A stretch of DNA of 62,696 nt from Sandaracinobacteroides sayramensis (GTDB lineage Bacteria; Pseudomonadota; Alphaproteobacteria; Sphingomonadales; Sphingomonadaceae), in the NCBI RefSeq assembly GCF_022014495.1, contig NZ_JAKLSQ010000008.1, positions 1 to 62,696 of the forward strand, written 5' to 3'. Shown here piece by piece: positions 7,626 through 52,169 of the stretch. The notes below the pieces were generated by a model. That model searched no databases, was not told the DNA's origin, and worked only from the letters and a program-made list of their open reading frames with translations. The translations under genes were made by a program, and so were the position numbers. Every line of letters starts with the position of its first letter. Position 1 is the stretch's first letter.

Positions 7626-9134
7626 ATGACGGACGTGAGCTTTGCCGCCGAACAGGATCTTTCCGGCAGCGCGGCGCTGCTGGTCTTCGTGGGCGAGGGC
7701 GGGGAGCTCACCGCGGGCGCCAAGGCGGTGGAGAAGGCCAGCGACGGCCAGCTCGGCCGGGCGATGAAGGCGGCGGGCTTCACCGGCAAGAAGGGCAAGC
7801 TGCTGGAAATCCTGGCGCCCGCCGGTCTCGGCGCCGCGCGCCTGCTGGTCGCCGGCCTCGGCGAAGGCGCAAAGGCCGACGCCCGCCTGTTCGAGGACAT
7901 CGGCGGTGAAGTCGCGGCGAAGCTGCAGACGGTGGAAAAGCAGGTGGCGGCCGATTTCTCCGGCATCGCCGACCTCGCCGTCGCCACCGACGTGGCGGCA
8001 GCGCATTTCGCCCATGGGGTGGAGCTGCGCAACTGGCGGCTCGATACCTACCGGACGAAACTGAAGGACGAGCAGAAGCCGAAGCTCGCCAAGGTCACGC
8101 TGGTCGGCGTGGGGAAGAGCGCGAAGCCGCTGGTGGAACGGCTGCACAAGGTGGCCGAGGGCGTCGCCTTCGCCAAGGAACTCATCACCGAGCCGGGCAA
8201 CATCATCTACCCCGAAAGCTTCGTGGAGCGGGTGCGGGAGAAGGTGGAACCGCTCGGAATCAAGGTGACGGTGCTGGACGAGAAGAAGCTGAAGAAGCTC
8301 GGCGCCGGCTCGATGCTGGGGGTGGGGCAGGGCAGCGTCCGCCCGCCGCGCCTGCTGGCGCTGGAATGGAACGGCACCGGAGACGAGGATGCGACTCCGC
8401 TCGCCCTCGTCGGCAAGGGCGTCACGTTCGACACCGGCGGCATCTCGCTGAAGCCGGGGCCGGGCATGGAAGACATGAAGTGGGACATGGGCGGGGCCGG
8501 CGCCGTCGCCGGCACCATGGTGGCGCTGGCCGGCCGCAAGGCGAAGGCGCGGGTGATCGGCGTCTGCGGCCTCGTCGAGAACATGCCCGACGGCAACGCC
8601 CAGCGCCCGGGCGACATCGTCACTTCCATGTCGGGGCAGACGATCGAGGTGCTCAACACCGACGCCGAAGGGCGGCTGGTGCTGAACGACTGCCTCACCT
8701 GGACGCAGCGCACCTACAAGCCGAAGGTGATCCTGGATTTCGCCACGCTGACGGGCGCGATCATCATCAGCCTCGCCCACTATTATGCCGGGGTCTTCTC
8801 CAACTCCGACAGCCTGTGGAACAAGCTGGACGAAGCCGGGAAGTCGGTGAACGACCTCGTCTGGCGGCAGCCGCTCTCCGAACCCGGCGGCCACTACGAC
8901 CAGATGATCGACTCGACCATCGCCGACATGAAGAACATCGGCGGGCGCGAAGGCGGCTCGATCACCGCGGCGCAGTTCCTGCAGCGCTATGTCGACGAAG
9001 GCGTGGAGTGGGCGCATGTCGACATCGCCGGCGCCGTCTGGCGCCCGAAGGCCGCCCCGCTCTACGACAAGGGCGCGACCGGCTTCGGCGTGCGGCTGGT
9101 GGACGCGCTGGTCGCGAAGCATTTCGAAAGCTGA
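7626..9134 (+). CDS. pepA: Leucyl aminopeptidase (M17)
   Basis: This cytosolic metallo-exopeptidase removes N-terminal residues from peptides. The 502-residue protein has the M17 two-domain architecture: a variable N-terminal half to about residue 170, then the catalytic half with KGVTFDTGGISLKP (264-277), the metal-binding MKWDMGGA and the signature NTDAEGRL (344-351). A GAGGGAG-type ribosome-binding site lies before the ATG at 7626. The gene leads a three-gene unit with holC and a YbjN-like protein; pepA-holC adjacency is common in Proteobacteria. Confidence 0.96.
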   Translation: MTDVSFAAEQDLSGSAALLVFVGEGGELTAGAKAVEKASDGQLGRAMKAAGFTGKKGKLLEILAPAGLGAARLLVAGLGEGAKADARLFEDIGGEVAAKLQTVEKQVAADFSGIADLAVATDVAAAHFAHGVELRNWRLDTYRTKLKDEQKPKLAKVTLVGVGKSAKPLVERLHKVAEGVAFAKELITEPGNIIYPESFVERVREKVEPLGIKVTVLDEKKLKKLGAGSMLGVGQGSVRPPRLLALEWNGTGDEDATPLALVGKGVTFDTGGISLKPGPGMEDMKWDMGGAGAVAGTMVALAGRKAKARVIGVCGLVENMPDGNAQRPGDIVTSMSGQTIEVLNTDAEGRLVLNDCLTWTQRTYKPKVILDFATLTGAIIISLAHYYAGVFSNSDSLWNKLDEAGKSVNDLVWRQPLSEPGGHYDQMIDSTIADMKNIGGREGGSITAAQFLQRYVDEGVEWAHVDIAGAVWRPKAAPLYDKGATGFGVRLVDALVAKHFES

Positions 9135-43374: not shown

Positions 43375-43590
43375 GCGTGCGTCCCCCAAGGTTGCGGCCC
43401 GCCCCACCCCTGGGGCGGCCTGTGGCGCCAAGCATAGCCCGAGGGGGCCGCCGGTGCCAATCCGCTTTCCGAAAGCAAAAAAGCCGGGAAACGACATTCG
43501 GAAACTACCGGTAAACCCCGCCAAACCCCCATCACCCCTGCCTTGAAGCCGCTATCACCCCCGTCTTGAAACCTCCGTCTTGAAACCTCC

Positions 43591-43678
43591 GTCACCCCGG
43601 GCTTGACCCGGGGTCCAGCTTCTCCCTGCCACGGCGCCGCAGAGAAAAAGCCGGACCCCGGGTCAAGCCCGGGGTGAC
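43591..43678. repeat. Dispersed repeat family C, paired copy
   Basis: Arms 43591-43620 and 43649-43678 are an inverted family C pair with a 28-base spacer, the same geometry as the copies at 5023 and 34072. It sits in the 632-base gap 43375-44006. Between 43375 and 43590 I see no gene, only the CTTGAA-rich short direct repeats ACCTCCGTCTTGAA near 43555-43588. Confidence 0.85.
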
Positions 43679-43761
43679 GGGCCTGTGGCGATCCGACCCG
43701 TTCAAACGGAACCGTTGTCAATTTTCGGTTGAACTTCAGCGCCCGCACACCCCATATTCAA

Positions 43762-44006
43762 GGGTGGAGCCGGAACGCACGGTTCCCGGGGCGTAGCAAC
43801 CCCGAACGTAGACGGTTGGGCTGCCCGATGCGGCTCGCACATCCTTGACCCTATGGTCGGGGAGCCTGCGGCGTATGTCCAGGGCTTCCCAGCCTAAAGG
43901 TCGTAGGGACCGATCTACGTCGGTTTGCTAACTCCCCGATCACCAGGGATCATGGTGTGAAGCCTTACGCGGGGGCGTACCGCCAAAGGCTTCATCGGGG
44001 ATATCG
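43762..44006 (+). ncRNA. Structured leader RNA upstream of a methyltransferase (riboswitch-like candidate)
   Basis: This 245-base stretch has no credible gene but folds extensively. Helices: GGAGCCG 43766-43772 with CGGTTCC 43780-43786; GGGG 43788-43791 with CCCC 43934-43937; TAGCAA 43794-43799 with TTGCTA 43925-43930; ACGTAGA 43806-43812 with TCTACGT 43914-43920; GGTTGGG 43814-43820 with CCCAGCC 43888-43894; terminal hairpin 43843-43862; GGTC/GACC 43899-43911. Alternatively CCCCGA 43934-43939 pairs with TCGGGG 43995-44000 just before the start codon, enclosing CACCA/TGGTG and TGAAGCCTT/AAGGCTTCA hairpins. The two uses of CCCC exclude each other. A tentative promoter is TTGAAC 43729-43734 with CATATT 43753-43758. 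I cannot match it to a known Rfam class. Confidence 0.6.
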
Positions 44007-44801
44007 ATGACCGATGCTTATGTGCACGACAGCTATGCAGCCTATCGTCCGGGGTCGGAACGATCCGCGGCCATCGTCGCGGATTTGATCCTGCCGCTCC
44101 TTCGGCCGGAATCCGTGCTGGACGTGGGTTGCGGAACCGGCGGCTGGCTGGAGGCGTTTCGGGCGCGCGGTGTCCGGCAGGTTCATGGGATAGATGGTCC
44201 ATGGGCGCCGGCTGCGCAGGTGCTACGCCCCGGTGAGTTTACCGAGATAGACTTCCAGAAGGCAAGCGCCGACCCGGCGCCAACATTGCCGCTTGGGAAA
44301 TATGATCTGGTAACATCGCTGGAGTTTCTGGAACATGTGACTGCTGACCGCGCCGACATGCTGGCCCGCTTTCTGGCCCGGCAGGGCGATGTGCTGCTGG
44401 TGTCCGCCGCCATTCCGCTACAGGGCGGCCAGCATCATGTGAACGAACGCTGGCCGGAATATTGGGTTGGCCGTTTTGCGGCGCTCGGTTTCGAAGCCTT
44501 TGATGGAATCCGCTTCGCGCTCTGGAACGAAGCGGATGTGGAAAGCTGGTATCGCCAGAATATGATACTTTATTTTCGAGGAGGCGTGCCGGATAGCGTC
44601 CGCAAATGGGGCGAGGCGCTTGCATTGAATGCGCTCGAAAGTCCTCGGGCGGTGGTGCACCCGGAATTTTACGCCAAGCGTCTGGGCCGCCTGCACATGG
44701 CCGTGACGCGCCCGCTGCGTTTCGCCCATATGCTCCTCACCGAAAACAGGGCGCAGGCACGCAGCGCGCCACCTTTCGGCAACCTTGGGCGCGAGCCTTA
44801 G
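44007..44801 (+). CDS. SAM-dependent class I methyltransferase
   Basis: The 264-residue protein has the SAM-binding motif VLDVGCGTGGWLEAF (about 37-51), then IDGPWAPA and DLVTSLEFLEHV (motif post I to motif III). The C-terminal half (HVNERWPEYWVGRFAALGFEAFDGIRFALWNEADVESWYRQNMILYFR) is seen in methyltransferases of surface polysaccharide or small-molecule pathways; the substrate is unknown. Codon use is less GC-rich than that of its neighbours, which suggests transfer. It follows a long structured leader that can pair with the ribosome-binding GGGG at 43997-44000. Confidence 0.85.
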   Translation: MTDAYVHDSYAAYRPGSERSAAIVADLILPLLRPESVLDVGCGTGGWLEAFRARGVRQVHGIDGPWAPAAQVLRPGEFTEIDFQKASADPAPTLPLGKYDLVTSLEFLEHVTADRADMLARFLARQGDVLLVSAAIPLQGGQHHVNERWPEYWVGRFAALGFEAFDGIRFALWNEADVESWYRQNMILYFRGGVPDSVRKWGEALALNALESPRAVVHPEFYAKRLGRLHMAVTRPLRFAHMLLTENRAQARSAPPFGNLGREP

Positions 44802-44851
44802 CTTTTTCGCGTTCAAGCGCTGACGAGGCTGGAGATATCCTTCGCACGTCG

Positions 44852-44947
44852 TCCCCCTCCCCGACCCTCCCCCGCAAGCGGGGCGAGGGAGACAGGAAAC
44901 CGCCCCTGCTCCCTCCCCCCGCAGGGGGGAGGGTTGGGGAGGGGGGA
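44852..44947. repeat. Palindromic G/C-tract repeat family E, copy 1
   Basis: Two hairpins lie here: CCCCCGC-AAGC-type at 44869-44884 and the strong CCCTCCCCCC (44911-44920) with GGGGGGAGGG (44924-44933). The right half, from CTCCCTCCCCCC to AGCAAC, recurs at 52082-52125. It fills part of the 194-base gap between the methyltransferase and the convergent ettA. Confidence 0.8.
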
Positions 44948-44995
44948 AGCAACCTGCGACGAACAGCGCGCCCGACGCAGCAGCGCAACCCCCCG

Positions 44996-52081: not shown

Positions 52082-52119
52082 CTCCCTCCCCCCACCGGGG
52101 GGAGGGTTGGGGAGGGGGG
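52082..52119. repeat. Palindromic G/C-tract repeat family E, copy 2
   Basis: CCCTCCCCCC (52084-52093) and GGGGGGAGGG (52097-52106) form a 10-bp stem with a 3-base loop, six bases after the mutT stop. The same core, followed by GTTGGGGAGGGGGGA-type sequence and AGCAAC, is at 44908-44952. Confidence 0.75.
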
Positions 52120-52169
52120 AGCAACCGCGCCACCCAAAAACCGCCGCCGGTTTCCCCTCCGCTTTCCAC

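Follow-up and report, generated by a model that had tools for sequence, protein, structure and literature searches.

The stretch of DNA analyzed here, referred to as the window, comprises 62,696 nucleotides of the 3.82-Mb genome of Sandaracinobacteroides sayramensis. On its plus strand, positions 44007 to 44801 encode a class I SAM-dependent methyltransferase of 264 amino acids (Pfam Methyltransf_23, 56.6 bits against a cut-off of 27), flanked on both sides by opposite-strand ORFs that we take to encode an aquaporin-like and an ABC protein. On the strand of the methyltransferase, more than 245 bases 5' of the gene are free of any ORF of 80 residues. A probable promoter is recognizable from sequence at 43729 to 43758 on the same strand, with TTGAAC at 43729 to 43734, an 18-base gap, and CATATT at 43753 to 43758, although on its own it is weak, because an automatic promoter and terminator scan of the window called none. 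Among homologues, TA[TA] starts 19 to 22 bases 5' of the ACG loop of the first hairpin of the RNA, H1, in 72 of 118, compared with 3 to 11 of 118 in six other, neighboring four-base windows, a placement that fits a promoter immediately 5' of a leader RNA.

The unit of RNA and methyltransferase is bracketed by two other elements. A 93-base palindromic repeat just 5' of the leader (43590 to 43682) has about 40 occurrences genome-wide (80 matches counting both strands, with 40 of 243 candidates scored). A GC-rich palindrome lies 3' of the methyltransferase (44851 to 44960), with weaker partial copies elsewhere, one of them at 52082 to 52126 on the window's contig. MicroRNA matches sit on GC-rich palindromes outside the leader RNA and were disregarded.

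An earlier note on this DNA had proposed a structured RNA at 43762 to 44006, and folding bears this out. Positions 43762 to 44010 fold at -123.3 kcal/mol; 200 dinucleotide shuffles average -101.8 ± 5.4 (z of -4.0), and not one of them folds as well. The unconstrained MFE fold of 43762 to 44030 (-129.5) is a form with a long-range GGGG/CCCC helix; a form with the ribosome-binding site (RBS) paired lies 1.9 kcal/mol above it, and the fold derived by comparison of homologues comes to -122.1, with its pseudoknot left out of the score. These alternatives are therefore close in energy, the three of them spanning at most 7.5 kcal/mol with the pseudoknot left out.

Read 5' to 3' on the plus strand, the comparative fold begins with hairpin H1 (43766 to 43786; GGAGCCG/CGGTTCC with loop GAACGCA, the ACGC of which matches the loop of a later hairpin, H5). 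Hairpin H2 (43788 to 43803; GGGG-cgUAGCAA-CCCC) is the equivalent of a1 in phage P1 and seqA in phage P4, and its loop holds the 5' strand of a pseudoknot, UAGCAA (43794 to 43799), whose 3' strand, UUGCUA (43925 to 43930), is the equivalent of a' or seqB. Hairpin H3 (43818 to 43836) comes next, followed by a C4-like core. Stem P1 of the core begins GGU with its 5' strand GGUCGGGGAG (43855 to 43864) and ends with its 3' strand CUCCCCGAUC (43932 to 43941), then ACCA. It encloses P2 with hairpin P2a, together at 43865 to 43907 (P2 strands at 43865 to 43872 and 43900 to 43907, P2a at 43882 to 43895), and hairpin P3 (43909 to 43924). The internal loop of P2, GUAUGUCCAGG/CUAAAG, is conserved among members.

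Two small hairpins overlap these elements. GACC-CUAU-GGUC (43847 to 43858), at the outer end of stem P1, is 94.2% paired with no double changes and is a possible alternative element. CACCA/UGGUG (43941 to 43957), within the RBS-paired form, was recognized from the window's sequence and, judged by eye, is retained in only some relatives. Hairpin H5 (43959 to 43993, with an inner stem-loop GCGG-GGGCGUA-CCGC at 43969 to 43983) stands at the place of phage a2 or seqC and has several different stem sequences among members, as read by a parser that took only fully paired stems and left 10 of 131 rows without one. The RBS, CAUCGGGGA (43993 to 44001), is the complement of UCCCCGAU, to which duplex energy ties it.

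Covariation in homologues, on which the earlier note had made its proposal depend, is present. The alignment of 69 non-redundant members (69 of 123 loci kept, redundant ones dropped by a k-mer rule, with L012, L015, L016, L073, L080, and L123 removed by hand) has 90.8% of its structure cells paired and a covariation score of 0.306, compared with 0.155 ± 0.005 when shuffled and no more than 0.091 when slid. A further alignment of 80 rows (A4, which like A3 was model-fitted) scores 0.668 over the whole structure against 0.205 shuffled; 9 of its 80 members, those above 125 bits, stand near the window's group, the remainder being divergent. G-U cells number 368 against 46 for A-C, and therefore the plus strand is the folded strand, a count that settles the strand rather than the choice between RNA and single-stranded DNA.

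The support is spread across the structure. The pseudoknot is paired in 98.7% of cells among the 69 sequences, with changes on both sides at five of its six pairs, and reaches at least 6 bp in 68 of the 80 members compared with 15% of swapped partners. Stem P1 is 98.9% paired with double changes at all 10 pairs among the 80 members, in that model-fitted alignment; its 5' strand is nearly invariant in the window-group set, A2, whose members were mostly collected by an exact 22-base pattern over the 5' strands of stem P1 and P2. Double changes occur in P2 at 8 of 8 pairs among the 80 members (2 of 8 among the 69), in P3 at 5 of 5 pairs in both alignments, and in H3 at 7 of 7 pairs, with 83.0% of H3 cells paired among the 69 and 81.6% among the 80. 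H2 is paired in 99.3% of cells, with double changes at two of four pairs in the 69 sequences and at all four in the 80. H1 is the weakest helix of the 69-sequence MAFFT alignment, which is partly misaligned there (63.9% paired); it reaches 87.5% in the model-fitted alignment, with double changes in both.

The loops of H1 and H5 appear to vary together. Their letters, ACG[C/U] in H1 and [G/A]CG in H5, agree in 117 of 117 rows (99 C/G, 18 U/A, none mixed), these being the rows with a readable ACG[C/U] and [GA]CG, with other letters dropped rather than scored as mismatches. An intermediate parsing of 129 rows misread 17, in which an ACG of the stem was taken, and left 11 unreadable; a looser parsing gave 25 rows with both loops read yet outside the two combinations, ascribed to misreading. 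Each letter changed at least eight times on the tree, and the four independent contrasts on supported branches (eight on the best tree) all run in the same direction, too few for significance in a sign test (p of 0.125). A contact between the H1 and H5 loops is suggested by this pattern. Comparative analysis thus supports H2, H3, P1, P2, P3, the pseudoknot of the H2 loop with a', and a placement ahead of the start codons of genes that are unrelated; its support for H1 and for the coordinated letters of the H1 and H5 loops is less firm.

The 3' strand of stem P1 has alternative pairing partners. CCCC at 43934 to 43937 had been assigned two mutually exclusive partners, GGGG at 43788 to 43791 and, as CCCCGA, TCGGGG at 43995 to 44000 over the RBS. 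All of these motifs lie where they had been placed and both pairings exist, but a third partner had gone unlisted, the 5' strand of stem P1, which covaries at 10 of 10 pairs; positions 43932 to 43941 can therefore pair with that strand, with the GGGG of H2, or with the RBS, as the equivalent of b'. The long-range GGGG/CCCC helix stands in part: it belongs to the MFE form and is 98.6% paired, but it shows no double changes in the 69 sequences. Since it has none, and since its GGGG has a covarying local partner in H2, we rejected it as a separately supported element.

Pairing over the RBS is present in the window as claimed, where the match of CCCCGA to UCGGGG is in fact one of 8 bp, ATCGGGGA/TCCCCGAT, and the pair of putative switching strand and RBS reads UCCCCGAU/AUCGGGGA. 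The duplex of the b' strand CUCCCCGAU with the RBS comes to -14.5 kcal/mol against a mean of -5.8 for 100 letter shuffles (p of 0.01). Complementarity to the RBS is above chance, at p ≤ 0.05, in 42 of 107 homologues, as judged against letter shuffles only. Of the 80 members, which are mostly divergent, 29 have a terminator-like GGYGG..TTTT no more than about 50 bases 3' of the match. Several genomes of the class that are low in GC (L197 to L231) contain multiple copies standing before repeated genes (pilin-like, glycosyltransferase, or others), and in these copies a terminator-like hairpin often follows stem P1 immediately.

Evidence of a large family is apparent from several kinds of search. 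By BLASTN, a second copy, 78% identical, lies on contig 16 of the same genome, and copies occur in three other genomes, so that 4 of the 59 genomes searched matched overall. Similar DNA was found in 252 plasmid records with the window copy as query and in 213 with the contig-16 copy, mostly from Agrobacterium, Rhizobium, and Bradyrhizobium, and in two records of a phage collection. The exact 22-base pattern occurs in at least 119 stretches of GTDB genomes, at least one of which, L080, is suspected to be a chance match; among the matches listed are 107 from Alphaproteobacteria, 6 from Acidobacteriota, 1 from Gammaproteobacteria, 4 from Pseudomonadota without a class, and 1 unplaced. The same pattern is found in eight IMG/VR contigs.

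Covariance model R1, whose E values are rough, matches five places in the organism's own genome. Within the phylum, 25 of the 398 genomes searched have a match at E ≤ 0.01. At E ≤ 1e-6, the model matches 51 of 385 genomes in the window's class and 72 of 296 in its order, and a matching genome often has several copies. These copy numbers are lower bounds, because just six or eight candidates were scored per genome in the wide searches. Many of the matches are to whole genomes, some of them single contigs.

Most matching plasmids are typed as conjugative (169 of 213 and 210 of 252), which could suggest that the conserved object is a single-stranded DNA fold used in conjugation, as a promoter or origin, rather than an RNA. 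We regard this as very improbable, as the element is also present in IMG/VR contigs and in many whole genomes and keeps a spacing to start codons that is not expected of a role in single-stranded DNA. Among 107 of the 119 window-group members to which an ORF start was assigned, start codons sought 5 to 60 bases 3' of H5 only lie at a median of +150 from stem P1 (quartiles 148 to 153), with 77 of the 107 at +145 to +154. Of five annotated plasmids, three have an annotated CDS that starts 9 to 17 bases 3' of the match, a fourth lists its next gene 182 bases off, and the pTiS4 copy, in an incomplete gene table, has no gene listed nearby. The leader position claimed for the window is upheld by a structure that runs to the start codon, by the joint variation of the H1 and H5 loops, and by the clustered start codons of homologues.

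The same spacing bears on whether the RNA is a free trans-acting small RNA, 6S or other, that merely happens to lie upstream of a gene. Free forms have been described, with sRNA-Xcc1 mapped as an 88-base RNA (PMC2996969) and 21 C4-like sRNAs reported in Acinetobacter baumannii (PMC5320573). We nevertheless find this unlikely for the window, where start codons of homologues cluster near one distance, no terminator was found, and the structure extends to the RBS. A processed short form may exist alongside the leader. As for 6S RNA, which had been raised as a rival for the 5' part, no Rfam 6S match was found.

What follows the RNA is varied. From 208 places, 191 downstream ORFs were called mechanically (sought at +132 to +186 or up to 115 bases from the match; some may be spurious), and they fall into 84 blastp clusters. 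Named genes among them include XRE and AraC regulators, DUF5818, BamE, a glycosyltransferase, DNA methylases, DUF2285 with an excisionase-like HTH gene next to it, and a Rha-like gene that misses the Pfam cut-off; members outside the count of 191 precede Bro-N and ECF sigma genes. The nearest leader found, from Sphingomonas (L111), is almost identical to that of the window and carries a compensated change in the pseudoknot, from UAGCAA/UUGCUA to UAGUAA/UUACUA. The ORF downstream of it belongs to a cluster that holds a DUF5818 protein, not a methyltransferase.

Several downstream contexts deserve mention in their own right. The contig-16 copy (L005, 998 to 2866) precedes a small PF10074 gene of DUF2285 type, presumably QseM-like, whose block also contains an excisionase-like HTH gene and DUF6499/DUF2285 frames that overlap, a set described for conjugative elements. 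A divergent subgroup of the window's order (L155 and L163) lies before ECF sigma factor genes in both cases examined. In one genome, two copies (L252 and L253) have near-identical XRE-type downstream genes and different pseudoknot codes (UCGUAA and UGGAAA). We considered whether pseudoknot codes are orthogonal within a genome, as those of the window copy and its contig-16 paralogue differ, yet codes are repeated in several genomes, and the idea was rejected as unsupported.

The earlier note had named SAM or a related metabolite as a natural though untested ligand, the downstream gene being SAM dependent, and had proposed a search with homologous leaders before similar methyltransferase genes. 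R1 found no match in the fetched stretch of any of 11 methyltransferase homologues, and the methyltransferase on a Methylocystis plasmid is not a clear relative of that of the window; a linkage of methyltransferase and RNA was rejected. In a family in which 191 downstream ORFs fall into 84 clusters and L111 lacks a methyltransferase, SAM is not a natural ligand. An Rfam search, which the note had proposed, matched no family at the gathering cut-off in the window and 11 relatives, with no SAM or SAH family appearing up to an E value of 10. A SAM or SAH riboswitch for the methyltransferase is thus scarcely credible; the layout of a translation-controlling riboswitch or leader survives as a leader RNA and finds no support as a SAM riboswitch. 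Given L111, the 11 homologues, and the 84 clusters, the RNA is a module rather than a methyltransferase-specific sensor, and the leader has the look of a gene switch open to reuse before different genes.

Rfam was equally silent on these RNAs at 20 further loci, where it matched tRNA and hammerhead elsewhere only. One of these matches is a type II hammerhead ribozyme of 66.4 bits in the same stretch as a C4-like RNA (L154, 2890 to 2954). No description of the alphaproteobacterial group was found in the literature searched, which left supplements and most subscription papers outside its scope, and the group may be in print elsewhere. It was not found in the accessible parts of the structured-RNA surveys PMC11109978 and PMC8632094, and the accessible part of the DUF2285 paper PMC10359603 holds no mention of a leader or noncoding RNA that we could find.

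That no known class matches, as the earlier note had it, is true of riboswitches; the layout is that of the phage C4 and P4 CI immunity RNAs, with which phages P1 and P4 keep genes of their own silent and which had not been considered. In phage P1, a' is complementary to an upstream a1. The window shares with C4 a long stem enclosing two hairpins, of which P1, P2, and P3 covary, and a complementarity of a' to an upstream a1, here the pseudoknot helix. Like the C4 RNAs of P1 and P7, it has a three-stem core, a b' able to cover the RBS, and GGU at the 5' end of stem P1, which makes GGU at 43855 a candidate RNase P site by analogy. The complementarity of b' to the RBS is present in the window and not in most homologues. 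Unlike the phage RNAs, the window has no a2 and no antirepressor gene: an a2 6-mer stands before the gene in 1 of 107 members of its group, compared with 40 of 1,653 by chance for other codes. By eye, a2 is present in several distant members, such as L004, L161, and L166, and the C4 order of a1, a', a2, and b2 is seen in several distant relatives, of which two precede Bro-N genes. Some distant members precede Rha-like genes that fall below the Pfam cut-off.

Phage P4 offers the closest parallel in order of parts. The P4 CI region, like the window, has 5' hairpins, a seqA hairpin (CGGGCGUGAGAACCCG, which resembles the window's CGGGGCGUAGCAACCCCG), a C4-type core with a seqB complementing seqA, and an RBS. 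The seqA loop GUGAGAA complements UUCUCAC of the C4 core, and a second copy, seqC, lies before the gene. P4 differs from the window in a U-tailed hairpin within isrK, 107 bases between isrK and C4, and seqC before the gene; the window differs from P4 in a longer P2 with its conserved loop and in the joint variation of its H5 and H1 loops. The window therefore holds the seqA-like hairpin and the core, and its group lacks seqC. Rfam places isrK (RF01394) and then C4 (RF01695) on one strand of P4. At 8420 to 8692 of the phage (L284), the two families match neighboring, mutually complementary parts of that strand; Rfam keeps them apart, as only C4 carries a clan in the search output.

Model scores stay below membership. 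The C4 model exceeds its cut-off in all three of phages P1, P4, and P7 and gives 20.7 bits on the window against a cut-off of 45, and R1 matches none of the three phages. sRNA-Xcc1 (RF02221), with a similar core fold and a model of 87 positions that covers the core only, gives 20.8 bits on the window and 37.6 bits (E of 0.0019) on a relative, L002, below the cut-off of 53; isrK has no match on 43380 to 44100 up to an E value of 10. Common descent with phage C4 therefore rests on layout and intermediate members. The leader group appears to work like the C4 and P4 CI RNAs, but it scores below the Rfam membership cut-off and lacks the a2 feature.

Published work indicates what such RNAs do. Phage P1's system is summarized in PMC8198154, and the c4 and c4-a1b1 motifs are listed by Weinberg in 2010 (PMC2864571). 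In C4, b' occludes the RBS, a' gives specificity, and RNase P cuts at GGW (PMC5320573); P4 CI RNA pairs with seqA and seqC, resulting in transcription termination (PMC4825925). IsrK of Salmonella Gifsy-1 has a two-hairpin 5' part like that of the window and is a leader that silences an RBS by alternative folds, its long transcript being translationally silent and its short RNA activating in trans (PMC4825925); IsrK has its own terminator, and the terminator scan found none in the window. sRNA-Xcc1 lies upstream of symE in Xanthomonas integron cassettes (PMC12444791). Group 1 of the C4-like RNAs of A. baumannii resembles our family in having many copies per chromosome and a variable a', but these are described as sRNAs of a gammaproteobacterium, and a common leader position is not mentioned in the accessible part of PMC5320573.

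We favor, at a probability of roughly 60%, the reading that this RNA is the 5' leader of the methyltransferase mRNA and belongs to a large pseudoknotted family centered on Alphaproteobacteria, with the architecture of the P4 CI and P1 C4 immunity RNAs and an inferred RNA-RNA switch. Its elements run in the order probable promoter, H1, H2 (a1/seqA), the C4-like core (a'/seqB and b'), H5 at the place of a2/seqC, and RBS, with the 3' strand of stem P1, CUCCCCGAU, as the putative switching strand. A compact form, made of stem P1, the pseudoknot, and a contact of the first and last loops, would hold this strand and leave the RBS free. Once released, the strand would cover the RBS and turn the gene off or, in relatives, would allow a terminator-like hairpin with the same outcome. 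The trigger is probably RNA-RNA pairing, as in C4 and IsrK. A core that has been terminated or processed, perhaps through an RNase P cut at GGU, is a candidate, and it could come from the same copy or from another with a matching code. On the best reading, the leader is predicted to control translation of whatever gene follows.

A metabolite or other ligand, or a protein, at the conserved P2 loop is an alternative trigger. The RNA could be a metabolite riboswitch of a new class, not specific for SAM, with the C4-like core as aptamer, the P2 internal loop as binding site, and P1 with RBS or terminator as platform. The conserved GUAUGUCCA/CUAAAG loop, the leader position, and the terminator-like elements after stem P1 in some members with RBS pairing in others are what such a device would offer, but the 84 downstream clusters share no common pathway, the pseudoknot sequence is variable like the specificity loops of C4, and the phage P4 and P1 RNAs that share this layout have RNA as their described target. 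We see this as a minor possibility. A general RNA-binding protein or ribosomal factor might instead bind the leader with no specific RNA or metabolite trigger, as the conserved loops and many unrelated genes would allow; as the five annotated plasmid loci, a small sample, share no partner gene, we give this a slight chance.

A more tentative extension of the RNA-RNA switch, one we hold as speculative, is that a phage immunity module has become a common leader in Alphaproteobacteria, each copy with a short pseudoknot code, whose processed cores would act in trans on leaders with the same code. Unrelated genes, whether on ICEs, plasmids, prophages, or chromosomes, would thereby be joined in code-specific RNA networks or incompatibility groups. 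If the favored reading is right, a leader like C4 and P4 CI, not reached by Rfam cut-offs, precedes many unrelated genes. This would extend a mechanism of phage lysogeny to chromosomal genes and to conjugative elements, in which the leader stands ahead of DUF2285 genes of QseM-like type, and it would provide a common control element for many genes without an assigned function.
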